Shown piece after piece: positions 19,017 through 43,059 of a stretch of DNA of 64,000 nt. Where the stretch lies: positions 124,001 through 188,000 of the IMG/VR virus record IMGVR_UViG_3300020473_002200; one strand, given 5' to 3'. The stretch comes from a virus. A program made the position numbers and the translations under genes. The notes under the pieces were generated by a model that worked only from the letters and a program-made list of their open reading frames with translations, did not search any database and was not told where the DNA came from. Every line of letters begins with the position of its first letter. The first letter of the stretch is position 1.

Positions 19017-19270
19017 TGAGAAAGAATGATCTGGTAAAAAGAGTTAAAAAGAGCGAAAGAACATTTTATAATGAAATGGAATTAGACTCTATTGGAATAA
19101 TCGTCAAAGGCCCATACGAAAAAAATGTGTCTGATATTATTTACGCTATAAAGCCATGGTTAAAGCAAAAGGTGAGATATACTGAGATAAAGATGGTTAT
19201 AGACATATTAAGTGAAAATAGGGTTTATAAGCATTGCGTTATTGAAGAATACGAGAGGGTAAAGAGTTGA
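19016..19270 (+). CDS. hypothetical protein
   Basis: 84 residues, start overlapping the previous stop (TAATG). A helix-rich basic protein; NEMELDSIGIIVKGPYEKN and VYKHCVIEEYERV are the ordered parts. No assignment. Confidence 0.55.
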   Translation: MRKNDLVKRVKKSERTFYNEMELDSIGIIVKGPYEKNVSDIIYAIKPWLKQKVRYTEIKMVIDILSENRVYKHCVIEEYERVKS

Positions 19271-20280
19271 GAAAGACAATTACGTTTGATGATGTTTTAT
19301 TGGTTCCCCAATATTCAGAGATTTTATCTAGAAAACAAATTGATCTTTCTGTTAATTTAGGGGATAATTTATTGGATCTGCAATGTCCTTTTGTGTCTAG
19401 CCCAATGGACACTGTGACAGAGCATACAATGGCTATCTCTATGGCGAAGTATGGCGGTCTTGGTATTGTCCATAGATATAATACGATCAAGGGACAGGCT
19501 GATATCGTAAGAGAAGTCCAGATGAAAACTGATAAAGTTGCTGCAGCTATCGGTGTTTCGGGAGATTTTTTAGAACGTGCCCAAGCAGTTATTTCAGAGG
19601 GCGCAAAAATACTTTGTGTTGATGTGGCACACGGCCATCACGCTTTAATGAAGAATGCTTTAAAAAAATTACGTGATATCTTTAGTGATGATATTCACAT
19701 TATGGCGGGTAATGTAGCAACTCTTGACGGCTTTAATGATTTGGCTGATTGGGGCGCCGATAGTATTCGTGTAGGTATTGGTGGGGGCTCTATTTGCTCC
19801 ACACGAATCCAAACTGGTCATGGAGTCCCAACTCTACAAAGCATACTAGATTGCTCGCAGACGGATCGTAATGCCTTGATAATCGCAGATGGTGGAATGC
19901 GGAGCACAGGTGATATTGCAAAAGCGATAGCTGCCGGAGCTGATTTAGTGATGTGCGGTTCTCTATTTGCGGGTACCGATGAATCACCTGGAGAGGTATT
20001 TTCAGCTTCTGATAATAAGAAATATAAAGTATATAGAGGTATGGCTTCTGTGGAGGCACAAAGGGACTGGAAGGGCAGCCATAATTCAGTCGAGGGTATC
20101 TCTACAACAATACCATATAAGGGCTCTATTAAGGACATAATTGAATTAATGAAAAAGCAATTAGCTAGTGCATGTTCATACTCTGGTGCCGTTAGCTTAA
20201 GCGAATTTAGAAATAAATCTGAGTTGATTGTACAATCAAACTCGGCCCAACAAGAAAGCTCTACTCATATTTTGAGATGA
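19267..20280 (+). CDS. guaB: IMP dehydrogenase / GMP reductase family enzyme, CBS-less
   Basis: 337 residues from TTG 19267. [24 protein letters not shown], the catalytic-Cys loop [11 protein letters not shown], the DGGMRSTGD phosphate-binding segment and the [10 protein letters not shown] flap are all in order. The regulatory CBS pair of bacterial IMPDH is absent, as in GMP reductase. The C-terminal VEG...IPYKG and [10 protein letters not shown] match IMPDH more than GMPR, so conversion of IMP to XMP for guanine nucleotide supply is favoured. Confidence 0.88.
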
Positions 20281-20878: not shown

Positions 20879-21517
20879 ATGAGAAGCAAATTAAGAACAT
20901 TAATTAGAGAAATGCTTGAAGATGAGCTTAGTCCAGTCGCTCCGCAACGAACAATACCCCAGAATGAATGGACTTTATTGCAGTCTGGTGATCCAAGAAG
21001 AGAGCAAGTAAAACAAAACTTATTCGATTTAGTGCAGCAAACATACGCTCCTATCGGTGGCCACTTTAAAATTACTAGTCCTGATAGTCTAGATAGATAC
21101 ACCTATTGGGTCGTTAAAGATATTGATGATGATGCAGATGTTGATGTTGCGATTATGGGAAAACCTGATGTCGGCGGAGTAAAAATGGGGGCCGCAGCAA
21201 ATGATGGCTCACCACAGGCCTCAGGGGAATATAAGAGCAAATCTGCAGAGCTTAGAGCTGGTGGATCTATTGCCGGTATTGGGAATTGGTGGGGTGAGGT
21301 TAGCGGAAAGCCTGCGTACGCCATGTTAAAAAGAGGCGCAAAGCCAGTTGAGGATGAAGCGAAGGTTGCACAATTACTCGCAGGTGATGACTATATTTTT
21401 CATGGAGAACACCCGGACCCAAATGCTCCGCCATTGTTTAAGAGCGCAAAGGGTTGGTATACTAAAAAGTTCGGAGCTAAAAGCTCAACAAAGATCATAT
21501 TGGGGAATCCAGCGTGA
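20879..21517 (+). CDS. tagged putative packaged protein, unknown payload
   Basis: 212 residues. N-terminus MRSKLRTLIREMLEDE is a divergent member of the tag family (I-R-E or L-E-D-E cleavage). Payload: PIGGHFKITSPDSLDRYTYWVVKDID, then a DVDVAIMGKP strand, a Gly-rich SIAGIGNWWGEVSGKPAYAMLKRG section and LLAGDDYIFHGEHPDP. The alternation of strands loosely recalls GNAT acetyltransferases, but no acetyl-CoA motif is certain. First gene of the tag cassette. Confidence 0.7.
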   Translation: MRSKLRTLIREMLEDELSPVAPQRTIPQNEWTLLQSGDPRREQVKQNLFDLVQQTYAPIGGHFKITSPDSLDRYTYWVVKDIDDDADVDVAIMGKPDVGGVKMGAAANDGSPQASGEYKSKSAELRAGGSIAGIGNWWGEVSGKPAYAMLKRGAKPVEDEAKVAQLLAGDDYIFHGEHPDPNAPPLFKSAKGWYTKKFGAKSSTKIILGNPA

Positions 21518-21705: not shown

Positions 21706-21944
21706 TGAAAGTCACAAAACGACAATTAAGAAAAATCATTTCAGAAGCGCTAGCACTGGATCTAGAAGTCGGCGATGTAATTCTTACTGGTCGTTTTAAA
21801 AACAAGAGAACAGTCGTAAAGAGTATTGGGACTGATGACATGGGCCAACCTACTATAAACGGGATGAAAGCGCTCAGCTTTAGAATAGAGAAGCTGATGC
21901 CAAAATCTAAATGGAGTAAAAAGTCTCTGGAGGAAGAAGAGTGA
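21705..21944 (+). CDS. tagged SH3-like small protein (type A tag)
   Basis: 79 residues. Tag MKVTKRQLRKIISEA, followed by LEVGDVILTGRFKNKRTVVKSIG and GMKALSFRIEKLMP, a compact all-beta barrel of the GDxI...V type. Close in style to many small phage barrel proteins of this window, here joined to a capsid-targeting-like peptide. Confidence 0.72.
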   Translation: MKVTKRQLRKIISEALALDLEVGDVILTGRFKNKRTVVKSIGTDDMGQPTINGMKALSFRIEKLMPKSKWSKKSLEEEE

Positions 21945-22909
21945 AAATCACAAAACGACAACTGCGAAGAATTATCAGGGAATCTACCTACGAAGATTGG
22001 CGAGATGATATTAACATCGCTGATGATTGGTATGGTGATCTTAGCAACACGCAAGATGAGTATAGTAAGCTACGATCACCTGCAGGTAACAGGATAGGAA
22101 TAAGCTGGTACCTTGGCGTTCCTATGTGGTCTAGCTATGCCAAGTCGACGTTCATGAAAAGGTATGGAAATCGCGCTGGCGCTACAGTTAGGATTGTTAG
22201 AGACCGGAAGGACCCTCCACTGGTAGGGTATATTACAGTTAACGGTATAAAGTCTCTTGACCTCAGCGACCTTAGCAACGTCGATAAACGCCCTCGAGAA
22301 CTAGCTGACTTACTGAAAAAAACTATGGACGAAAGTCTTAAAGACCCCGAGCGAATGGCTCAGTACAAAGATTACCTGAATTCAAATCGAGGGCCCGGGA
22401 TGGTAATGGCCTCTGCAAGATCGTCATGCTCTAAGATGAGAATCACAGAGGCGCAACTAAGAAGAATTGTTAAAGAATCTTTGAAGACAGAAATATTCGG
22501 CTTTGGTAAAAAGAAGAAGAAAGAAAGCAAAATAGAAAAACCCGTTTATCTTATAAGAGTAGATAGTTTTCCAAAAAGCTGGGCCGCCCATTCCTACAGA
22601 ATAAGTAAAGACCAAGATAATGAAAATAGAAAATCTGAAAAGCAACTAGGAAAAGAGATTGGCGCAGAAGTAGACATGGCTCTTTTGAATAATCGATATA
22701 TTCTAGCTGTGCAAAAGCCTTATGAAACTAGCGCTGAAGCAAAAAGCGTAGTTAGTAAAATAAACACCGTAGTTAAGAAAATGCTTGAAGATGAATCAAT
22801 CCACTTTGGCAAAGATAAGCAAACTCCAGAAGCAATAAAGTCTGGTAAAATAGCGTCTATTCTTGTGTGGGATTCGGAAAAAAGTCTTCCTTGGGAGAAG
22901 TTGCTATAA
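21941..22909 (+). CDS. double-tagged protein (two type A tags, in-frame fusion)
   Basis: 322 residues from GTG 21941. Tag 1 is MKITKRQLRRIIRES at the N-terminus; tag 2 is MRITEAQLRRIVKES starting at Met166 (base 22436), same frame, with no convincing ribosome-binding site before it. Payload 1 (~150 residues) and payload 2 (GKKKKKESKIEKPVYLIRV...KPYETSAEAKSVVSKI; SPOR-like in spacing but unassigned) are unrelated. Best explained as two adjacent tagged genes fused by loss of a stop; the inner tag would supply a second cleavage site. Confidence 0.75.
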   Translation: MKITKRQLRRIIRESTYEDWRDDINIADDWYGDLSNTQDEYSKLRSPAGNRIGISWYLGVPMWSSYAKSTFMKRYGNRAGATVRIVRDRKDPPLVGYITVNGIKSLDLSDLSNVDKRPRELADLLKKTMDESLKDPERMAQYKDYLNSNRGPGMVMASARSSCSKMRITEAQLRRIVKESLKTEIFGFGKKKKKESKIEKPVYLIRVDSFPKSWAAHSYRISKDQDNENRKSEKQLGKEIGAEVDMALLNNRYILAVQKPYETSAEAKSVVSKINTVVKKMLEDESIHFGKDKQTPEAIKSGKIASILVWDSEKSLPWEKLL

Positions 22910-23402: not shown

Positions 23403-23729
23403 GTGTACGAATACCGAGCATTTGTCAGAAAAGTATATGATGGTGATACAGTTACTGTAGATATTGATCTGGGATTCGACGTCATTCTTAAGGCTCAGAA
23501 AATACGTCTACTTCGTATAAACGCTCCTGAAGTCAGAGGTGAACAAAGAGAATTTGGCTTAAAGTCTAGAGACGCCCTTCGTCAAAAAATTGGTAATAAA
23601 TGGATTAGGCTAAAAACAGAAAAAGATAAGAAGGGTAAGTTCGGTCGCTGGCTTGGGGAGATTTGGTTCAATGATGAGTGCGTAAATGATTGGCTTCTAA
23701 GAGAGGGATTCGCAGAGGTATATAAATGA
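23403..23729 (+). CDS. staphylococcal-nuclease-like (thermonuclease family) protein
   Basis: 108 residues from GTG 23403. VYDGDTVTVDI, IRLLRINAPE, EQREFGLKSRDALRQ and KFGRWLGEIW place the Asp, Arg and Glu catalytic residues of the SNase fold in order. Ca2+-dependent cleavage of DNA or RNA is expected. No signal peptide and no tag, although it sits inside the tag cassette. Confidence 0.85.
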   Translation: MYEYRAFVRKVYDGDTVTVDIDLGFDVILKAQKIRLLRINAPEVRGEQREFGLKSRDALRQKIGNKWIRLKTEKDKKGKFGRWLGEIWFNDECVNDWLLREGFAEVYK

Positions 23730-25006
23730 AAATCGCAAAGTATCAGCTAAGAAAATTTATCCGCGAAAGTTTTTCTTCTGAAGATTTTAAGGATGTTTAT
23801 AATACTGCAAGGATGGCTCATGTAGGTCAAACCAGACGCGATGGTTCTGAGTATTTTTCACACCCATCAGAAGTTAGAAATATCGCCAGAAGTTTTTATC
23901 CTAGAGATAAACTCGCGCAATTAGCGGCTCTTCTTCACGATTCCTTAGAAGACGCCCCAGGATCTACAGTCGAGTCTGCTGAGGAGATGGAAGATTTTAT
24001 CAGGGGTTCTATACAGGATAATTCTCAAGCTGATGAAGTGATTAGGGTCGTACGCGCTTTGACTCATGAAAAGGGTGGAGATTATTTGTCATACGTAGTC
24101 GGTTTAATGGGTGATGTGCCTACTCTAAGGGTAAAGTTATCAGACATGGTTCATAATCTTACCGATAATCCGTCTCCAAAACAAAAAGCAAAATATAAAT
24201 CAGCTTTAGACGCAATTTCAATAAAGACTTCAGGCCAGCCTCCTTCTGGAATTTCTAGCAAACATTGGGACACTCTTCTTTCTTTGGCTGAGAATAAAAA
24301 TCATTCTTTAAAAGAATATATTGGTTTATTAATTGAGCTGGATGAAGTGGCACTTCTTAGTGAGGGTGAGGGTATATCTTGTCCTATTCGCGGGGCTTGG
24401 TACGGCGGCATGCCTGCAGGCGGCGGGTTTGGTCCCCATAAAGAGTACACTGTCGCAGCCCAAAGATACGGAGAGGCTGCTCATTGTATTCTTGGTTCTC
24501 TTGGTAGAAGGGTCGGTGCACCCGGAAAAACAGAGTGGCATTCAATGATGGTCGGCGAACGCGAGCACCTTCTAGAAGAAATCGGCATCATGATGAAAGT
24601 GATAGAAGAGTATTCTAGAGACTTGTACATAGACCAAATTAACGATATCACTCGCTATAGAGAAGATCGAAGGGAAGAGATTGCTGAGTGGAACCAGGGT
24701 GCAATTGATGACATTAGAAAGACGGCACCAAAACTTGAAGAAAAAGCTAGAAATAATATGGGCCGCTTAAAAGCAATAAAAGATGCTGAGCCAGAGTTTC
24801 CAGACTCTGTTTTTAAAGTTGCGCTTTATACATACCAAAGCTTAGGTATGCTAGGCAAGTTTATGCTTGAGAGTATTGAAGACTGGGACGATGAAAAAGG
24901 GACCGGTTTAGATCCTGCAAAAAACGCTTTTAAAAACCGGCGACTGCGTGGAAGAACTTTTATGTTAGCCGCGGCTATCGATGAAATGATTGAGGACTTA
25001 TCATGA
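23726..25006 (+). CDS. tagged RelA/SpoT-type HD hydrolase (putative (p)ppGpp hydrolase)
   Basis: 426 residues. Tag MKIAKYQLRKFIRES, then an RSH-type HD domain at residues ~28-170: AHVGQTRRDGSEYFSHP (His46), ALLHDSLEDAP (His71-Asp72, Glu75-Asp76) and KLSDMVHNL (Asp140, Asn144), the Mn2+ ligand set of alarmone hydrolases. No synthetase domain. The C-terminal ~250 residues are helical and unassigned. If packaged, it could remove alarmones at the moment of infection. Confidence 0.82.
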   Translation: MKIAKYQLRKFIRESFSSEDFKDVYNTARMAHVGQTRRDGSEYFSHPSEVRNIARSFYPRDKLAQLAALLHDSLEDAPGSTVESAEEMEDFIRGSIQDNSQADEVIRVVRALTHEKGGDYLSYVVGLMGDVPTLRVKLSDMVHNLTDNPSPKQKAKYKSALDAISIKTSGQPPSGISSKHWDTLLSLAENKNHSLKEYIGLLIELDEVALLSEGEGISCPIRGAWYGGMPAGGGFGPHKEYTVAAQRYGEAAHCILGSLGRRVGAPGKTEWHSMMVGEREHLLEEIGIMMKVIEEYSRDLYIDQINDITRYREDRREEIAEWNQGAIDDIRKTAPKLEEKARNNMGRLKAIKDAEPEFPDSVFKVALYTYQSLGMLGKFMLESIEDWDDEKGTGLDPAKNAFKNRRLRGRTFMLAAAIDEMIEDLS

Positions 25007-25959
25007 GCTTACTACGAAGATACATAAGGGAAGCGTTAATAAGCGAAAGCGCTAACTTAAAAAAGCTTAACGAAATTATAGAAGAGTGTTGCATTAGATA
25101 CTGCTTAAAAGAAGGCATTATATCTATACCGTCTAATCCAAAAAACTATATTGTTGTAGAGGGCCGATGGCTTATAAGAAAGTCTTTACTTGCCGAAAGA
25201 AAAAGTGATACTTTGGCGACAATTGATCAAGCAAGAAAGTCCTCGAATTATTGGACTCCTGGGAAATGTGGCGATTTTGAGCACACTTATGGGAGCATAA
25301 GTACAAATCTTAAGCATGGCCGCGGTATGGATCATATTGAAAAATATTTAGATGATGATGAAGGTGAAGCATATTGGAGATGGTATGGTTCATGTGCAAA
25401 AGGGGTGGATAAATTCCAGTGGTTACAAGCAGATATGATAGCCGGTGCGGGTGGTGCGATTGTTGATCTTACAAAAGCTGCTGGGAAGGGGTTGTATAGA
25501 ATACTTAAGCCGGCCGTGAAGAAAGCCGGTCGTTTAGCATTAAACGTAGCAGACGAAGCTGGAAAACTTGCTTTAAAGTCGACCGGCAAAGCTTTGGGGA
25601 TCGCGTGGGATGTTATAAAAGACGTAGTAACAGATTCCGCAGACGCTACCTGGGACTGGATGAAGACTAGGGGGACAAAAAAAGACCTCACGACATTGGC
25701 TTATGAAAATCCGGATAAATTTATTGAATTTCATAATACAACAAAAGGCAGATTACAGGGCGCTGGTTTGCCGGTCGATTCAGCTGGAGAGACAGCCAGC
25801 ACAATGGGTTTGCTACAAACAGATATAGGGAAACAAACAGCAGAAACTGCTGCTAGCTCATTAGGTATTACTGCTTCTCAATTGGAAGATTTATTAATAG
25901 TTCATATGCACACATTTAATGAGCTTACTTTAGCTAAAAAGAGGACGGCTTTTACATGA
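25003..25959 (+). CDS. tagged protein with amphipathic helical centre (type B-like tag)
   Basis: 318 residues. Tag MSLLRRYIREALISES. Residues ~145-215 alternate Gly/Ala and Lys in long amphipathic helices (AGKGLYRILKPAVKKAGR, DEAGKLALKSTGKALGIAW), which might interact with membranes or DNA. Cys-containing N-terminal region (EECCIRYCLKEG). Function unknown. Overlaps both neighbours by 4 nt. Confidence 0.7.
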   Translation: MSLLRRYIREALISESANLKKLNEIIEECCIRYCLKEGIISIPSNPKNYIVVEGRWLIRKSLLAERKSDTLATIDQARKSSNYWTPGKCGDFEHTYGSISTNLKHGRGMDHIEKYLDDDEGEAYWRWYGSCAKGVDKFQWLQADMIAGAGGAIVDLTKAAGKGLYRILKPAVKKAGRLALNVADEAGKLALKSTGKALGIAWDVIKDVVTDSADATWDWMKTRGTKKDLTTLAYENPDKFIEFHNTTKGRLQGAGLPVDSAGETASTMGLLQTDIGKQTAETAASSLGITASQLEDLLIVHMHTFNELTLAKKRTAFT

Positions 25960-27080
25960 AACTACTACGTGAATACATAAGAGAGTTATTACTAATAGAA
26001 TCCGATGAAGTTGATGCCGACGGGTACATCAAAGGTGAGGATGGGAAATGGTATAATCCCCAAGGTCGAAAGCAATGGGAGTTGCCATGGCAATTTAAGA
26101 ATAGCAGGAAGACAGGCAATATCAGGTACTACCCCGACGAGGATGGGACTTGGACTATTAAGCCACCATCGCCTATTCCCTCCAAGTATAACGGGGTTGA
26201 GGGTTACGTCTTGCATGCTGCGTACGAAAAGAATGGGGATGTCAAGTACGGAAGCAAAGTCGCCGGTGTGGATTTGCATGCAGGACAGTCCGCGGAATGG
26301 TGGGAATATCCGAAAGACGGCTCGATCGTAGTAGTACATCCAGAGCTCTATCAACGTGATGACGGTTACCCCTGGTTCACAAATCCCGAGTGGGTGGCGT
26401 ACTATAAAAAGGCGCTGGAAAAGATAATGACTTTGGGTGGAAACGCCTTCTCTTTCGCGAAATTCCAAGGGTTTATAGTTCAGGCCCAAGATCCTAATAG
26501 CGAATGGGCAAAGAGGCTTAGCGACTTAGGGGTAGCTGAAGGTCATACGCTATTAGAGCGTTATGGAAGAGCACTCCTCGATCCTGGTGATGAAGATTGG
26601 GTCGAGCAGGCAAAAGCAGCACGAGAAGGTGCAAAGTTACAGGGGCTATCATTTGAACTGTTTAAATGGCTTGGTGCCCATCTTGACTGGATGAAGACCT
26701 ATTATAAGAAGAGTATAAGTGATTTAGTTCTCCTCGAGCTTCTTGATGTGTACGAAGAATCCCAATCCGCTCCTAAGCCGGATTTAGAGGACGATGCCAC
26801 CGCCACTAAGGAAGGGAAAGAGCTAGCGCTCAAATTAGCTGACGCCATGTACATGCCTGTATTCGCTAAAGGCTTTGCAAAAATATGGCGTAAATTAAAT
26901 ATAAGTCCAAGGGAAGAGATTAGGGCGTTCTCGAAGTACGCAAGGGGAAATCGCACTGATGGTTATACACAGGCACATGATCTCTTAAGGAAGCATGATG
27001 AAACGACATATCCTAGTGGTATCATTTATGAGATACCAGACGAAGCCTATGCAGCGCTAGCAAGAGAATATTACAGCTAA
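25956..27080 (+). CDS. tagged protein, unknown payload (type B tag)
   Basis: 374 residues. Tag MKLLREYIRELLLIES. Payload opens with a Trp/Tyr-rich region (DGKWYNPQGRKQWELPWQF, GTWTIKPPSP), then a mixed central part and a helical C-terminus. No catalytic motif recognised. Codon choice is visibly more G/C-rich than in flanking genes, a hint of separate origin. Confidence 0.7.
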   Translation: MKLLREYIRELLLIESDEVDADGYIKGEDGKWYNPQGRKQWELPWQFKNSRKTGNIRYYPDEDGTWTIKPPSPIPSKYNGVEGYVLHAAYEKNGDVKYGSKVAGVDLHAGQSAEWWEYPKDGSIVVVHPELYQRDDGYPWFTNPEWVAYYKKALEKIMTLGGNAFSFAKFQGFIVQAQDPNSEWAKRLSDLGVAEGHTLLERYGRALLDPGDEDWVEQAKAAREGAKLQGLSFELFKWLGAHLDWMKTYYKKSISDLVLLELLDVYEESQSAPKPDLEDDATATKEGKELALKLADAMYMPVFAKGFAKIWRKLNISPREEIRAFSKYARGNRTDGYTQAHDLLRKHDETTYPSGIIYEIPDEAYAALAREYYS

Positions 27081-27813
27081 TGAAACTACTACGCGAGTAC
27101 ATAAGGGAGTTGTTGAGAGAGAAGGGCGAGCTTGGTAAAAAAGTGTTCGCTCAATCTGCACCTGAAGGTTCTCGCCACGCCGGAGATGAGCCGGACACTA
27201 AGTTGGAGACCAGTTTGAAACGTGCGCTAGCGAATCACTTGTTTGCAGGCGGCGCTTCATCAAAAGAGTTGGGTGAGCTTGGTCCCTACATATTGCGGTT
27301 CATGGATGATCCGGACTACAACGATGTCTTTATCAGATATTCGGGTGGAGAAGTTTGCAGAGGGACTCGGCTGAGTTTAGAAGAAGCCAGAAGTCTTATA
27401 CCTGGTTTCGACAACATGCCACTTGAGAGTGCAACAGGTCGTACACATGCATTCCAGAAGTTTGAAGCTTGGACACAGAAGGTCTCTGTTCCTCCATTTG
27501 AGTATTCCCCTAAGTCTGGCAACCAAGTGTCCTCGTGGTCAACGAACAGCGAAAGAGTCTGTACTCGGTTCGCGAAAAAGAACGCCGGTATTTGGGATGG
27601 AAATGTTGGCGTAATTCTATATACAGACTCTAGCCAAAATGATTTCTTAGATTTTAGCGAGCTGTACAAGTTTGGAGCGCTAAGTAAACACAGCCATGAA
27701 AAAGAAGTAGCAGCATTTGGTCCTGTGTTGGTAACGGCAGTTAAGGTTTACAAAGAGGTTACCGAAGAACAATGGGCTGAAGTGCAAACTGAAGTAGAGT
27801 TAGGAAGACCAAA

Positions 27814-27817
<4 letters not shown>
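27080..27817 (+). CDS. tagged ADP-ribosyltransferase (R-S-E class)
   Basis: 245 residues. Tag MKLLREYIRELLREK. Payload shows the ART triad in order: Arg94 in VCRGTRL, Ser-Trp-Ser-Thr at 152-155 after a beta strand, and Glu207-Lys-Glu209 in HEKEV, an E-x-E motif typical of arginine-specific ARTs. T4 Alt, which modifies host RNA polymerase, is likewise packaged and injected; the same use here is inferred. Paralogue of the next gene. Confidence 0.8.
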
Positions 27818-28864
<1,047 letters not shown>

Positions 28865-28865
28865 A

Positions 28866-29456
28866 ATGAACCTACTACGCGAGTACATAAGGCAACTGCT
28901 AACTGAATCCACTATTGATCCAAAGATCATGAGAATGATCGACAAGGCAGAGAAATATGGTCTTTTCGTGGACATCACATCTAACAGCGTAATCATCTAC
29001 GACGGCCACAACACCGATAAACCGCGCGCTAAAATTCACTTTGAAAGAGATACATCTTTCGGCCCCTGCAGAGGTGGAGCTTACGTTACTTATGCAAAAG
29101 CAGAAGGTGGCTTTGGCCCATTAGCTTATGACGTTGCCATTGAGGCTACAGGCGGTCTGATGTCAGATCGAACTGAAGTTTCCCACGAAGCGATGGTCGT
29201 TTGGGATTACTACGCGAATAACAGGCCCGATGTCAAAGTAGACCAGCTGGACATAATGAAGGACTACGGAGAAGAACAGTTAACTCCTGATGACAAGTCC
29301 GACGATTGCGATCAGGTACCGGCGTACGACAGGTACAAGTCAGACTGGCACAAGTCAGGCCTGTCAAAAAAGATAAGCAAGAGGGGTACGCCAGTCATAG
29401 ATGAGCTTAGAGCGCGTTTCATGCTTTACGACGATAGGGAAGACCACACACTATGA
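28866..29456 (+). CDS. tagged protein, recurrent phage payload (type B tag)
   Basis: 196 residues. Tag MNLLREYIRQLLTES. Payload: CRGGAYVTYAKAEGGFGPLAYDVAIEATGGLMSDRTEVSHEA (seen as separate strands and a helix), then VVWDYYANNRPDVK and DDCDQ. The GFGPLAYDVAIE element looks like the acetyl-CoA-type loop/helix of GNAT folds, but I cannot confirm the chemistry. Proteins of this look are, to my recollection, common in large aquatic phages. Confidence 0.7.
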   Translation: MNLLREYIRQLLTESTIDPKIMRMIDKAEKYGLFVDITSNSVIIYDGHNTDKPRAKIHFERDTSFGPCRGGAYVTYAKAEGGFGPLAYDVAIEATGGLMSDRTEVSHEAMVVWDYYANNRPDVKVDQLDIMKDYGEEQLTPDDKSDDCDQVPAYDRYKSDWHKSGLSKKISKRGTPVIDELRARFMLYDDREDHTL

Positions 29457-30436
29457 AACTACTACGTGAATACATAAGAGGGTTACTTCAAGAAAGTGTT
29501 AGCCCAGAAAAGTTGAAAGATCTTGCTTCGAAGATAATGGTTTCCCCGAGCAATGATTTTTCTGGTCAAGTTGGAGAAAAGATAGCTCTGATGTGGCATC
29601 CGAATGGAATGAACCTAAATAGCATCAAGAATAATAATTTCTTCCCATTTGCAGATATAGCTGCTGGGCCCCTGCCTTCTGCTACTGGCGAGCGGACTTA
29701 TAGGCAAAGACAAAACGCTAGCCATCCGTTTCCACCTCTCTATTCTGTAAAAGCAAGTAGCAGCATTACTTTTAGAAAAGGTGTATGGCAAGGAGCTGAT
29801 CCTTTTGCTAATTCAAGAATCAAAGGTAGCACTATATACGAATTAGTCAATGAACGCGGCCAAAATGGTTTAAGAGACGAAATTGATGCAATTTATGGAC
29901 CTGCCGAGGCTGGTAAAGTAGTCAAGCTAAGATTGGGAGCTATCGGGATCTTTCCTAGAGCGATGGCTAAGGACGAATCTGAAGAGCCGAGAGATGCTTT
30001 TGCTGACCCTAGAGCGATAGGTGTTACAGTTAAAAAATACGGTCCGAAGGAATTTGAGTTTGTAGCAAGCGCGGCCGGGCTTTATGAAAACCCAGTGACA
30101 CGCGTTGGTAAGCTTGGTAGCGAATCCCTAGTAAGTGGCGCGTTTGGCGCCCCTGATAACTTAACCAGCGAAGATATGCAGCAACCAGCCTCTGTAATTC
30201 CTGCACAAACTAGCGGCAGAAAAGATCAAAAATCAGATAGCGCTAGAGTAGCCGACCAAGAAACTTTAGACAGTTTGAGAAGTAGTATTGCTGCTATTGA
30301 TGACTCAAGGATTAGTCTTTCTAATCAAGATTTAAAAACTTTAGCAGATATTAGCACTCTAGAACCTGATGAATTTGAAGAAATTAGAGAGTTAGTTAGA
30401 GGAATATTGTCTAGAAGATCTGGAGAAGAAGCGTGA
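29453..30436 (+). CDS. tagged protein, unknown payload (type B tag)
   Basis: 327 residues. Tag MKLLREYIRGLLQES. Payload includes ATGERTYRQRQNASHPFPPLYSV, STIYELVNERGQNGLRDEID and KVVKLRLGAIGIFPRA, then a disordered Ser/Asp-rich stretch and a C-terminal helical domain. No known motif; the first ~200 residues could form one enzyme-sized domain. Confidence 0.7.
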   Translation: MKLLREYIRGLLQESVSPEKLKDLASKIMVSPSNDFSGQVGEKIALMWHPNGMNLNSIKNNNFFPFADIAAGPLPSATGERTYRQRQNASHPFPPLYSVKASSSITFRKGVWQGADPFANSRIKGSTIYELVNERGQNGLRDEIDAIYGPAEAGKVVKLRLGAIGIFPRAMAKDESEEPRDAFADPRAIGVTVKKYGPKEFEFVASAAGLYENPVTRVGKLGSESLVSGAFGAPDNLTSEDMQQPASVIPAQTSGRKDQKSDSARVADQETLDSLRSSIAAIDDSRISLSNQDLKTLADISTLEPDEFEEIRELVRGILSRRSGEEA

Positions 30437-30969
30437 ATCTCCTACGCGAGTACATAAAAGAATTGCTATCTGAGAATAAGCTGTCCAGCGCTGAGATACA
30501 ACACCTGCAGGCCATCAAACGCGGTTCAAGACATGAACGACGACGACCTCAGGCAATCGTCATAGGCAGGCTAATAGATAAGGGTTTTGTAACCGGCGAT
30601 ATGAAAGGTAATCAATTTCTCCCAGGTTACGGCGCTTCATCTAGTGCTAGCAACCTTGCCATCACTCCAGAGGGTGAAGCAGCATTAAGAGCAACTTTAG
30701 GCAAGGCAGACTCAGACATGGCCAAGTACCAAAAGATAATAATGCAAGCGGTCATCGACGCTGCAGGCAGTTCGGTACCAGAACACGAGTTGCCAGGTTA
30801 CAACCCAAAGACATTCAAGCTAAGAGGAAAGTACCGCAAAGCGTTTGACGAGTTGCGTGGGTTCGGAAGTGACATCGACGCCTTAACGATACAGAGAGAT
30901 TCACAAGGCAACAGAATGGTTAGCCCAGGACCTGATTTTGAGCGTATTAAAAGCGAGTTAGGATTATGA
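30433..30969 (+). CDS. tagged protein with winged-helix-like payload (type B tag)
   Basis: 178 residues from GTG 30433. Tag MNLLREYIKELLSEN. LSSAEIQHLQAIKRG...AIVIGRLIDKGFVTG...LAITPEGEAALRATLG follows the helix-helix-helix-wing order of MarR/winged-helix domains, ending in T-P-E-G. A DNA-binding packaged regulator is possible. Confidence 0.65.
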   Translation: MNLLREYIKELLSENKLSSAEIQHLQAIKRGSRHERRRPQAIVIGRLIDKGFVTGDMKGNQFLPGYGASSSASNLAITPEGEAALRATLGKADSDMAKYQKIIMQAVIDAAGSSVPEHELPGYNPKTFKLRGKYRKAFDELRGFGSDIDALTIQRDSQGNRMVSPGPDFERIKSELGL

Positions 30970-31763
30970 AACTACTTCGCGAGTACATAAGAGAGCTACT
31001 GAAGGAAGATCCAATGGGTTTTGTTCAGGATCTCGCCGCGGCATCTGATCAATTCCGTGACGAAGACTTTAACGAGTTTCACGGCGGCAACCCAGGTAAG
31101 TCAGGAGGCAGGGCGATCAAGCGTGCATTTGCTGCCAACGCTGATTATAACTTTCTCAACTCCTTAGATACTGTTCATTGGATTAAAGACGCTTACAATC
31201 TCAAACCGCTCATAGGCAGATCTCGAGATGAATTATCAGCCACTATGACTCTGCCTAGCGAGCCTTTTAAAGCGCCAAGAGGTTTTAATGCTGACCTAGA
31301 GTTAGGCTTGTGGATAAAGGGTCGTATAACTCTGGCAGCCAATAGTCAAGACGACCTGTACACTGGTACTTACTTCGATTACATGAGAGGACGTGATCCC
31401 GAACAGTTTGAAAAAGATAAGCACCGCAAAGCATCATCAGGTGTAAACAAGAGACCCACTGTTTCAAAAGATTATAGCAGGTACGCAAAGCTAAAAAGAG
31501 GCAATGAGTACCATGAAAAGCTGGCCAGAAAGATTCCGTATGTTCTGGATCAGTCGACTTGGAATCCAGCTTCTATAAACGAGGCGCTAGTAGACAACTG
31601 GCGAGCAAAGGGACTGATTGTCTCGGACCAAAGTATTATCGATGCAATCAAGGACAACCCAGAAGGCGACGGTGTAGGCTGGCTAAAAGAATTTTATGAG
31701 ATGGCTGAGGTATTCGACGTTCCAATGTATGACACAGACAAAAACGTAATCTGGAGCCCGTAA
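30966..31763 (+). CDS. tagged protein, unknown payload (type B tag)
   Basis: 265 residues. Tag MKLLREYIRELLKED. Helical and charged payload with KSGGRAIKRAFAANADYNFL, DTVHWIKDAYNLKPLIGRSRDEL and a region FDVPMYDTDKNVIW at the end. No assignment. Confidence 0.7.
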   Translation: MKLLREYIRELLKEDPMGFVQDLAAASDQFRDEDFNEFHGGNPGKSGGRAIKRAFAANADYNFLNSLDTVHWIKDAYNLKPLIGRSRDELSATMTLPSEPFKAPRGFNADLELGLWIKGRITLAANSQDDLYTGTYFDYMRGRDPEQFEKDKHRKASSGVNKRPTVSKDYSRYAKLKRGNEYHEKLARKIPYVLDQSTWNPASINEALVDNWRAKGLIVSDQSIIDAIKDNPEGDGVGWLKEFYEMAEVFDVPMYDTDKNVIWSP

Positions 31764-32569
31764 TGAAACTACTACGCGAGTACATAAGAGAACTTTTAAA
31801 TGAGAAAGCCCGAGTGCGCGGCTATATTAAGCCGTCTTCTTCTTTTCACACACTTCTACAGTGGGAGCTTGTGGTAGAAGAATTACTACAGCTTCAGAAG
31901 CAGGGTGTTGATACTCGAGGAGGCATGAGCTTAAATCAGAGACTACTTCAGATAATCGATGAATATTTTGGTTTTCAATACAATATCGAGGTAGAGAGGT
32001 ACGATCTCCTAACTCAAAAGAACATTTTAGACTTCATCGAGGATTTTACCAATCACAGATTTTGGGGACTGGAGAGAGAGTTCGGTAGTTATTTTCCCGA
32101 TATAAGTAAGTTGAAGTTTGCTTACTTCTATTCTCGTGGAGATCTTGAGCCTCATGTACTGATGGATGAAGAATTTACAACTCAGATTTATGGTGGTCTA
32201 GACAATCAAAAACGTCTTAGTCACTATACAACTCAAGCGGGAGTAGAAAGAATTCAGGCAGCTATTGACTCAGGTCGACCTTTCGATATATCATGTTTCA
32301 CCGTTGCGGAACGCCCTTTCTTTAGACCTGAATCTAGCTTGGTCGTGGAGTTAATAGGTAATGTTCGTGGGGGTTTTAGGAGTGATATTAAATCTGTCGC
32401 AGTTGATACTGGGCGCAGAGCATGTAATATGTATAGACTAGAGTACCCTGGCAAAGATCAGGATAATATTTGTAGAGAGCTGGACTCTTGTGATAGCGAA
32501 GTTCGTACTTCTTTGTGGAATGAATATATAGCGACGCCTGAAAAGATATTAAGCGTTAAGAAGGTATAG
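31763..32569 (+). CDS. tagged ART/KptA-like protein (type B tag)
   Basis: 268 residues. Tag MKLLREYIRELLNEK. The C-terminal half starts with KRLSHYTTQAGVERIQAAI, a pattern seen at the first strand/helix of H-Y-[EDQ] ADP-ribosyltransferases and RNA 2'-phosphotransferases, followed by FDISCFTVAERPFFRP, SLVVELIGNV and NEYIATPEKI, where a late Glu could complete a triad. Assignment is tentative. Last gene with a clear tag. Confidence 0.62.
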   Translation: MKLLREYIRELLNEKARVRGYIKPSSSFHTLLQWELVVEELLQLQKQGVDTRGGMSLNQRLLQIIDEYFGFQYNIEVERYDLLTQKNILDFIEDFTNHRFWGLEREFGSYFPDISKLKFAYFYSRGDLEPHVLMDEEFTTQIYGGLDNQKRLSHYTTQAGVERIQAAIDSGRPFDISCFTVAERPFFRPESSLVVELIGNVRGGFRSDIKSVAVDTGRRACNMYRLEYPGKDQDNICRELDSCDSEVRTSLWNEYIATPEKILSVKKV

Positions 32570-32571
32570 GG

Positions 32572-33207
32572 ATGTCATCTCAACTTATCATGATTTTAAA
32601 AGAATCAATTTCAGTAGTTCCTACTGGAAAATATATCTTTCAGCATAAGGGGTATCCATTATCAGTTGAGGAGCAAGCAAAAGATCTAGCCGAGGTTGTC
32701 GCCCAGTATCAAAAAAGAAAAGTTTCAGATAAATTACAGAAGACATGCGATGAAAATTTTAATAAACTTTTTCAAGTTTTTTTGGAGTCCAAAGGTAGAA
32801 CGTACAACGTAGATTATTATGACATGGTGATCGTTGGTCTAAAGCCAATAATCATAAAGCTCAAGAAGTACTATGATCGCCCTAGGCCCGCTGCATTAGC
32901 CAAGAGTATGGGCATAGATTTTTTAGGTGATGAGCTCGATTCTGCCCAATCTCCGTCATATCCAAGCGGCCACACCATCCAGTCTTACGTAATGGCAAAA
33001 ATGTTAAGTGATCAATTTCCAGAGCATGAAGAGAACTTGCTTAAAATAGCAGAGATAATTTCACAATCAAGGATTGATCGCGGAGTACATTTTCCAACTG
33101 ATATAGAGTATGGTAAAGAAGTTGCCGAGTCTTTATTTCTTCAAATAAAAGAGGGTCTAGGCGGTGAAACGCCTCAAGACAGGCAAGTATACGATCAAAT
33201 GGATTAA
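32572..33207 (+). CDS. PAP2-type acid phosphatase
   Basis: 211 residues. The three PAP2 motifs are present: KKYYDRPRP, PSYPSGHTI and SRIDRGVHFPTDI, giving the catalytic His, Arg and Asp residues. Soluble class: no clear membrane helices. Its N-terminus SQLIMILKES carries an L-K-E/S site at residues 10-12, so it might be a diverged member of the tagged group. Possible substrates: nucleotides or lipid phosphates. Confidence 0.85.
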   Translation: MSSQLIMILKESISVVPTGKYIFQHKGYPLSVEEQAKDLAEVVAQYQKRKVSDKLQKTCDENFNKLFQVFLESKGRTYNVDYYDMVIVGLKPIIIKLKKYYDRPRPAALAKSMGIDFLGDELDSAQSPSYPSGHTIQSYVMAKMLSDQFPEHEENLLKIAEIISQSRIDRGVHFPTDIEYGKEVAESLFLQIKEGLGGETPQDRQVYDQMD

Positions 33208-41610: not shown

Positions 41611-43059
41611 ATGAAAAAATCTAGAATTGAATTACGTGAAATAGCAATAAAAAAAGAGCGCGCGACGCCACTTCCGTCTGGGGCATTAGTCGTTGAGACA
41701 GGTGAGCATACTGGAAGATCTCCCAATGCGAAGTTTATAGTAAAAGATGATAGCGTTAAAGATAGTATAGATTGGGCATATGTAAGGGGTATGGACCCAA
41801 AGGTGTGGGAAGAAATAAAAGGGGATTTTTTCGCTAGTGAAAATTTTAAGAAGGGTTTATTCGAATCTTCTGTTTATGCCGGCCATAAAGATTTTGGAGG
41901 GATTAGCGTTAAGATTCATTGCGAGCTAGCTTGGCATTCAATCGCATCATTAAACATGTTCCAAGAAATTGATGATTGTGATAAATACGATTTTTCTCTT
42001 TATTATGTACCGTCATTTACCGCAGAGCCTTTTGTATTAATTTCTTTTGAGGATGGATTAATAATAATTTCTGGTACACAATACGCAGGAGAAATGAAGA
42101 AAAGCGTATTCACTATTTTAAACCATATATTACCAGAAGAAAATATATTTCCGATGCATTGCTCTATTAATTTAGACTCTAATCTAGAAAGCCCAACGGT
42201 GTTTTTTGGATTATCTGGAACCGGTAAAACTACATTATCAGCAGATTCAAATAGGAGATTAATTGGTGATGACGAACACGGTTGGTCAAGTTCGGGTCTT
42301 TTTAATTTTGAAAATGGTTGTTACGCAAAGGTCATAAACTTAAGCCAAGAGGACGAACCAGAGATCTGGTCAGCATGTCAAAAAGAGGACGCTGTTTTAG
42401 AGAACGTAGTTTTAAAAGGCGATGGTACCTTAGATTTTTTTGATAATTCAAAAACAGAAAATACAAGGGCGTCATATCCAATATCATATATTGAAAATTC
42501 TGTCTCAAGTAAAAGCACAAAGCTCCAGCCCAAAAATGTTATTTTATTGACGTGCGATGCATTTAGTGTACTACCAGCAGTGGCAAGACTAACACCGGAA
42601 GAAGCGTGGAAATTTTTTATTATTGGATATACTTCTAAAATCGCTGGAACAGAAAAGGGGATAAATGAGCCAACAGCAACATTTTCACCTTGTTTTGGAT
42701 TACCTTTTATGACAAGAAAACCAAAAGAATATGCAGATATGTTAAAGAAGAATTTAGAAAATTCAGATATAAATTGTTGGATGCTAAATACCGGGTGGAA
42801 TAGAGGACCCTATGGGGTGGGAGAGAGAATTTCTCTAGAAGACACTCGAGATATCTTAAATAAGATTTATGATGGTACATTGGCAAAACTAAAGACTTTT
42901 GAACATAGCTACACAGGATTGAATATTCCTTTAGATGTTACAGTGGACTTGACATTATTGAAGCCGGAGCTGGGGTGGAATAATATAAAGGAATATGAGA
43001 GCGTATGTGGCAATTTGTTGGATAATATGCGCAGCGTATTGTCAAATTTAAGCATTTAA
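41611..43059 (+). CDS. pckA: phosphoenolpyruvate carboxykinase (ATP)
   Basis: 482 residues. PSGALVVETGEHTGRSPNAKF is the substrate loop, GLSGTGKTTLSAD the kinase-1a P-loop, LIGDDEHGWS kinase-2, and FSPCFGLPFM and NTGWNRGPYGVGERI complete the ATP-PEPCK set. Shorter than the usual ~530 residues because the N-terminal domain is trimmed. Interconverts oxaloacetate + ATP with PEP + CO2. Very unusual in a phage; it could redirect TCA carbon during infection. Confidence 0.93.
   Translation: MKKSRIELREIAIKKERATPLPSGALVVETGEHTGRSPNAKFIVKDDSVKDSIDWAYVRGMDPKVWEEIKGDFFASENFKKGLFESSVYAGHKDFGGISVKIHCELAWHSIASLNMFQEIDDCDKYDFSLYYVPSFTAEPFVLISFEDGLIIISGTQYAGEMKKSVFTILNHILPEENIFPMHCSINLDSNLESPTVFFGLSGTGKTTLSADSNRRLIGDDEHGWSSSGLFNFENGCYAKVINLSQEDEPEIWSACQKEDAVLENVVLKGDGTLDFFDNSKTENTRASYPISYIENSVSSKSTKLQPKNVILLTCDAFSVLPAVARLTPEEAWKFFIIGYTSKIAGTEKGINEPTATFSPCFGLPFMTRKPKEYADMLKKNLENSDINCWMLNTGWNRGPYGVGERISLEDTRDILNKIYDGTLAKLKTFEHSYTGLNIPLDVTVDLTLLKPELGWNNIKEYESVCGNLLDNMRSVLSNLSI

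Follow-up and report, generated by a model that had tools for sequence, protein, structure and literature searches.

The internal proteins of phage T4 carry N-terminal capsid targeting sequences, which are removed by gp21 after an L/I-X-E site; the proteins enter the prohead core and are ejected along with the DNA (PMC9026906, PMC12373910). About 40–370 copies are found per head (PMC9026906). On the side of the alarmones, the HD-domain alarmone phosphodiesterases of jumbo phages have been proposed to act in counter-defence (PMC7824862), and both phage alarmone hydrolases and a proposed counter-defence role for them are already published (PMC7824862, PMC12846349). PaSpo of phage SSU5 removes the marks that FaRel2 leaves on tRNA (PMC11559606), and CapRel SJ46 defends against phage (PMC9712102). 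There are also injected polyvalent proteins with RelA/SpoT synthetase domains, which carry out the opposite chemistry (PMC5512222). An earlier note on the DNA studied here had suggested counter-defence against stringent-response and toxSAS-type systems; for non-packaged enzymes this idea was in print before (PMC7824862).

ToxSAS and stringent-response defences are quick to act, and an enzyme that the phage makes only after infection may be too late to counter them. To our knowledge, the alarmone-erasing enzymes of phages are known only as proteins made once infection has begun. No report of a packaged alarmone hydrolase was found in the literature searched; since the greater part of subscription journals and preprints lay outside it, this does not establish priority. 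The search suggests that the novelty lies in combining a known phage alarmone hydrolase with a known T4 type of injected internal protein.

The window, that is, the whole stretch of 64,000 nucleotides that was analysed, spans positions 124001–188000 of the 188,264-base virus record IMGVR_UViG_3300020473_002200, and its source appears to be a large T4-type virus of bacteria. The ORF at 23726–25006 (plus strand) begins with an ATG and encodes 426 amino acids. Its start overlaps by 4 bp the stop of the preceding gene (23403–23729), which is staphylococcal-nuclease-like by profile match (SNase, 1.3e-11). The ORF divides into four parts, namely a tag of 14 residues, an HD domain, a possible second tag and a C-terminal domain, with the following features.

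23726–23767, plus strand: N-terminal tag, aa 1–14, MKIAKYQLRKFIRE, a predicted capsid-targeting propeptide common to neighbouring genes
23768–24295, plus strand: RSH-type HD hydrolase domain, aa 15–190 (Pfam, PHROG 990, PDB, AF2, Foldseek)
23861–23863, plus strand: H46, metal ligand (HP motif), invariant in 57 homologues
23936–23953, plus strand: HDxxED catalytic motif, H71-D72-S-L-E75-D76, with H71, D72, E75 and D76 invariant
24143–24157, plus strand: D140 (metal ligand) to N144, in VKLSDMVHN, with D140 and N144 invariant
24302–24346, plus strand: possible second, degenerate tag (weak), aa 193–207, HSLKEYIGLLIELDE, at the junction of the HD and C-terminal domains
24347–25003, plus strand: C-terminal domain of unknown function, aa 208–426

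The earlier note had described a tag followed by an HD domain with the full metal set of a hydrolase, and the profiles, the alignment and the fold all bear this out. Absent from it were the tag-like segment at residues 193–207 and the unrelated C-terminal domain of 220 residues. The segment HSLKEYIGLLIELDE is similar to a 10-letter tag type of the neighbouring genes, and the homologues L002/L019 and L021 (L numbers refer to individual contigs) carry a clear tag at the same junction between the HD domain and the next domain. The C-terminal domain is possibly a second cargo; searches of Pfam, PHROG and PDB with residues 208–426 gave nothing above noise, and a search of the viral contigs gave no relative.

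By sequence and modelled fold, residues 15–190 belong to the RelA/SpoT (RSH) hydrolase family, with hydrolase activity as a prediction. PHROG 990 (metal-dependent phosphohydrolase) matches the domain at 5e-23, Pfam HD_4 at 1.2e-5 (25.5 bits, slightly below its cut-off of 27.2), Pfam HD at 2e-4 (slightly above its cut-off) and NCBIfam SpoT at 1.2e-10, which lies below the full-length cut-off. All 17 matches of the PDB sequence search (17/17; best 2.8e-10) were RSH or small alarmone hydrolases, comprising Rel, SpoT, MESH1-like and ppGpp/(p)ppApp hydrolases, and RSH hydrolases come ahead of other HD families in sequence similarity. Pfam found no synthetase, TGS or ACT domain in the 426 residues, and a hydrolase domain without these is the make-up of a small alarmone hydrolase (SAH). 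PADLOC gave no match to the protein.

H32, H46, H71, D72, E75, D76, K137, D140 and N144 do not vary across 57 aligned homologues, which were taken from both viral and cellular contigs. Among them, H46, H71-D72, E75-D76, D140 and N144 make up the H..HDxxED..D..N set that RSH hydrolases have, and by this alignment no metal or catalytic residue has been lost. D39 and M141 replace a Ser and an Arg of SpoT, and with D39 in place of the Ser, ppGpp may not be the substrate.

The AF2 model of residues 1–191, made with the 57-sequence alignment, reached a pLDDT of 92.4 and a pTM of 0.88, with the tag as a separate low-confidence helix (mean pLDDT 48 over residues 1–10); a run on the full 426 residues with a 4-sequence alignment reached a pLDDT of 43. 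In Foldseek against the PDB, the top 31 matches were all RSH, RelA or small alarmone hydrolase entries, among them MESH1, RelH, TdActApo2, SpoT, Rel, RelA and the Bacteroides (p)ppApp hydrolase, and other HD phosphohydrolases entered only after these, at E>0.1; the AF2 alignment included RSH homologues, and the fold and sequence evidence are therefore not fully independent. The earlier note had named a fold closest to a non-nucleotide HD family as the outcome that would tell against it, and the closest solved folds are instead all alarmone hydrolases. A generic non-nucleotide HD family for residues 15–190 was rejected on fold and sequence.

The exact substrate is a separate matter. The best fold match is human MESH1 with PAPS, and MESH1-type enzymes can use either NADPH or PAPS; PaSpo of SSU5, in turn, reverses the tRNA modification by FaRel2 (PMC11559606). 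Both are in favour of a packaged and injected enzyme whose substrate is not a free alarmone, acting on NADPH/PAPS or repairing tRNA with a 3'-CCA pyrophosphorylated by toxSAS. We regard this as unlikely, though worth keeping in view: no sequence feature of the ORF separates the candidate substrates, and in the tree the closest group contains hydrolase domains of cellular Rel/SpoT proteins.

The pN/pS of the HD domain is 0.15–0.21, with synonymous sites saturated, which points to purifying selection. This strong selection and the invariance of every catalytic residue argue against an internal core or scaffold-like structural protein with a borrowed HD fold and dispensable catalysis. Tagged core proteins of T4 can be structural, and IPIII affects head assembly (PMC9026906), but for the present protein such a role is very improbable.

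The tag of the hydrolase is one of many. Fifteen near-consecutive ORFs between 20879 and 32569 start with one of two tag types, with the consensus (M/V)K(I/V)xxxQLR(R/K)(I/F)IxE for type 1 and (M/V)(K/N)LLREYI(R/K)xLLxE for type 2; ORFs 20879, 21514 and 25003 have small variants. Two untagged genes, 23403 (SNase-like) and 28538 (ferredoxin), are interspersed. Apart from the hydrolase, the tagged ORFs are as follows.

20879–21517, plus strand: tagged cargo gene (LRTLIRE), with a homologue, 90% identical, fused behind the HD domain in L002
21514–23235, plus strand: tagged ORFs 21514, 21705, 21941 (two tags) and 22909
25003–28509, plus strand: tagged ORFs 25003, 25956, 27080 and 27814 (a 10-letter tag type; LLRRYIREAL in 25003)
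28866–32569, plus strand: tagged ORFs 28866, 29453, 30433, 30966 and 31763 (a 10-letter tag type)

The tag survey covered this array and a 20-kb stretch around the head genes of the same genome, and the motif searched was [LIVM][RK].[VIFLY][IVLM].E. Its background frequency is 1.7e-4 per residue (20 matches in 118,056 residues), which gives a chance of about 0.3% per gene of finding it within the first 15 residues. It occurs there in 14 of the 15 array ORFs, and the fifteenth, 21514, has the same tag minus the final E; a chance origin was rejected on this background rate. Between array genes the tag DNA is 71–78% identical over 36 bases with synonymous differences, and directly past the tag the identity falls to the chance level of 26–34%; the tag is thus a protein-level module common to unrelated cargos. 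A scan for T4-like late promoters (TATAAATA variants) turned up no convincing candidate ahead of either the array or the capsid gene.

Several smaller observations belong to the array. ORF 21941–22909 has tags at aa 1 and aa 166 and apparently holds two cargos in a single polypeptide. An out-of-frame tag remnant (28506–28540) lies just 5' of the YfhL-type ferredoxin gene (28538–28864; NCBIfam 8.7e-31), and its AGGAGG may be the ribosome-binding site of that gene. The last gene of the array encodes a PAP2-family phosphatase (32572–33207; 6.6e-11), whose N-terminus holds ILKE/S (the slash marks the site) in the absence of the strict tag motif. Further along the window, 41611–43059 is a phage-borne ATP-type phosphoenolpyruvate carboxykinase (NCBIfam 2.9e-168).

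The tag ends in a site of the kind that a prohead protease cuts. In the hydrolase, cleavage is predicted after E14, at (F)IRE/S, and short terminal propeptides with an (L/I)xE end are found in this ORF (FIRE/S), in the array and in the homologues. LxE alone is a weak motif. The same genome encodes a Peptidase_S77 (G000:68554–68997; 3.7e-26) and a Gp23 capsid protein (1.9e-65), and the capsid protein itself has an LxE site, ...LLENQAGQALRE/ASALAGG (...QALRE/ASAL), which aligns with VSE/A and ISE/A in Flavobacterium phage immuto and Microcystis phage Mel-JY01, the cultured phages closest to this one by capsid protein. Tag-like segments also occur on genes adjoining the protease and capsid genes, at the N-terminus in L006:9563, 9989 and 15089 and at the C-terminus in the head-region gene L006:10760 (...KRVRMVIRKMLEDE). 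Taken together, the LxE site, the resident S77, the matching site of the capsid protein and the independent tags of homologues support the view that the tag behaves like a capsid-targeting propeptide of T4.

Tagged proteins are likewise present in immuto (L179:2778, MKKSQLRQIIKE; L179:7221, MADNFNLRSFLTE), for which the literature search found no virion proteomics; its phosphohydrolase L180:16749 was rejected as a counterpart of the hydrolase, being a different HD protein. Tagged P-loop proteins turn up repeatedly in the vicinity of the capsid gene or of the tagged hydrolase: L006:15089–16648 (outside the window, directly after the capsid gene, with no family match), L030:2203–2940 and L025:3574–4449 have the P-loops GPPAAGKG, GAPGAGKS and GGPGSGKS and are zeta-toxin/kinase-like by eye. 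C-terminal tails of a different kind, WQKNAGLL/RWRKNAGLL, are found on window ORF 3885 and L006:16648, and RWQKLAGII/RMKKLAGIV on the scaffold-region proteins L179:16457 and L181:24970 of immuto and Mel-JY01; from their sequences, these NAGLL/LAGI(I/V) tails look like another head-protein signal in common.

Of all the evidence, the flanks of this hydrolase in other contigs say the most, for there the homologues carry the tag in varied positions. At 42–80% identity, 11 of 13 viral homologues, which include near-identical contigs and amount to about nine independent cases, are tagged by one fixed motif at the N-terminus, at the C-terminus or mid-ORF; the two exceptions, L018 and L020, lack the strict pattern and have another LRE/VKE site at the same boundary. 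The motif matches none of the 55 distant homologues (≤38% identity). The tag is N-terminal in L029 and L030, C-terminal to the HD homologue in L022–L026, and between the HD module and a second cargo in L027 and L028. In L021 an N-terminal tag on the HD module is followed by another tag and cargo, and in L002 the module lies between two tags inside a 619-aa ORF, where the cargo that follows shares 90% identity with 20879, a gene of its own in the window. An independent run of tagged genes, on a 289-kb contig, includes the L030 homologue. The HD module shares about 75% identity among the four closest sequences, in which E14 is invariant; the upstream sequence is unrelated and ends in FIRE, IIKE, AVKE or ALRE at the domain edge (with three extra residues between tag end and edge in L002).

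The tag of the distant homologue L060, MKSFTEHLTE, is of the T4 type: its Leu 8 and Glu 10 match the two positions on which processing of the T4 capsid-targeting sequence is reported to depend (PMC9026906). L060 branches elsewhere in the tree than the tagged clade, which suggests an independent tagging event. The tagged clade is monophyletic (98/94 support) and lies, within a 97/95 group, beside a set in which cellular Rel/SpoT domains occur together with a small number of phage enzymes; many stand-alone phage hydrolases fall outside that group. Cultured phages in the searched collection yielded no member of the clade. An IMP dehydrogenase/GMP reductase family gene stands a few genes upstream of the hydrolase both in the window (19267–20280) and in L002 (1104–2123); GTP-synthesis enzymes are regulated by ppGpp, and a functional link of this neighbour with the hydrolase is possible.

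It is worth asking whether the hydrolase is an ordinary phage enzyme that is never packaged, with a tag that serves for docking to a phage complex or for stabilising the nascent protein. Untagged stand-alone HD hydrolases are frequent in phages (PMC7824862, PMC12846349): a search with the SpoT HD domain gave 460 records at E≤1e-3, including a few that carry a wrong label or come from hosts, and there is no tag on the alarmone hydrolases of the isolates CC2, Va1, BcepSaruman, PVP-SE1, Javan119 and Mwe-JY26. However, the tag ends in a prohead protease site, occurs on head-region genes adjoining the protease and capsid genes, and among hydrolase homologues is near-universal only in the tagged clade. 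Of the contigs above 100 kb with a tagged homologue, all four have S77 (two of the four are probably near-identical), as do 3 of the 11 large contigs whose homologues are untagged. An enzyme that stays out of the head is therefore improbable.

The reading that we consider fairly likely is that the ORF encodes an alarmone or pyrophosphate hydrolase that is targeted to the capsid in the style of T4, released by the protease and injected; from the evidence above we infer that it is packaged, cut and injected, and likewise what its substrate and its benefit would be. As the head assembles, the precursor would enter the prohead core by means of its tag, and there the gp21-like S77 protease would cut after IRE, at the edge of the HD domain, and perhaps a second time after the tag-like segment at aa 193–207. 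Once freed, the RSH-type hydrolase would remain inside the capsid alongside the DNA until ejection into the next host, where the enzyme would strip the 3'-pyrophosphate from (p)ppGpp, (p)ppApp or toxSAS-modified tRNA. The removal would precede any phage transcription, and translation and nucleotide pools would stay permissive. At a T4-like dose, a slow enzyme could trim the basal alarmone pool or a limited number of damaged tRNAs within minutes, but would hardly clear a full stringent ppGpp pool; a few hundred packaged copies would indeed fit the small pool of damaged tRNA better, a point in favour of tRNA repair. As for the injected alarmone eraser that the earlier note had put as a question, its identity as an RSH hydrolase has gained support from fold and sequence, and its tag has turned out to be capsid-targeting-like.

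With slightly less assurance, we also lean towards a broader picture, taken as a whole: large T4-type environmental phages would have a family of alarmone or pyrophosphate erasers that travel in the virion. The same hydrolase would have acquired capsid tags in more than one lineage and at more than one position, at least once as an independent T4-type tag, and would act before the first transcript. It would belong to a modular injected-cargo system in which a tagged cargo can be a gene of its own in one phage and part of a multi-cargo protein in another, having moved between the two. If a pre-loaded hydrolase is real, phages spend capsid space so as to erase alarmone-type signals from the very outset. 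The tag rule, an amphipathic segment ending in [LI]xE plus S77 and gp23, would offer a simple read-out of the injected cargo of a phage, and most of the cargo it predicts here is without a known family.

How does this locus compare with the known systems? Like T4 IPI, IPII, IPIII and Alt, it has a short terminal propeptide with an (L/I)xE end, along with S77 and gp23 in the same phage, and like the T4 internal proteins it places several unrelated cargos under one tag, with ejection alongside the DNA proposed here. Unlike in T4, there are about 15 cargos in one run, far more than in T4; the tags are also inside multi-cargo ORFs and at C-termini, the latter a position less common among T4 internal proteins; and the cargo is an alarmone hydrolase by prediction, rather than a restriction inhibitor or an ADP-ribosyltransferase. 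By description, the tag sequences differ from that of T4 without recognisable homology, and only the (L/I)xE end is in common. With MESH1, RelH, the N-termini of SpoT/Rel and PaSpo of SSU5, the protein shares the HD fold, the H..HDxxED..D..N set and the lack of a synthetase domain; it differs from them in its putative capsid tag and extra C-terminal domain, and it falls in its own clade. The HD-alarmone phosphodiesterases of jumbo phages are likewise phage-encoded, of the same enzyme superfamily and of the same proposed purpose, but packaging or injection is not proposed for them in the accessible part of that report (PMC7824862). Finally, the polyvalent proteins with RelA/SpoT synthetase domains are a parallel case of injected multi-domain phage proteins acting on alarmones (PMC5512222). 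A polyvalent protein unites several recognisable effector domains and a processing peptidase in one polypeptide, whereas the ORF has a single recognisable domain; its L002 homologue is multi-cargo. In contrast to the polyvalent proteins, the ORF encodes a predicted hydrolase rather than a synthetase, and it would depend on prohead-protease sites.
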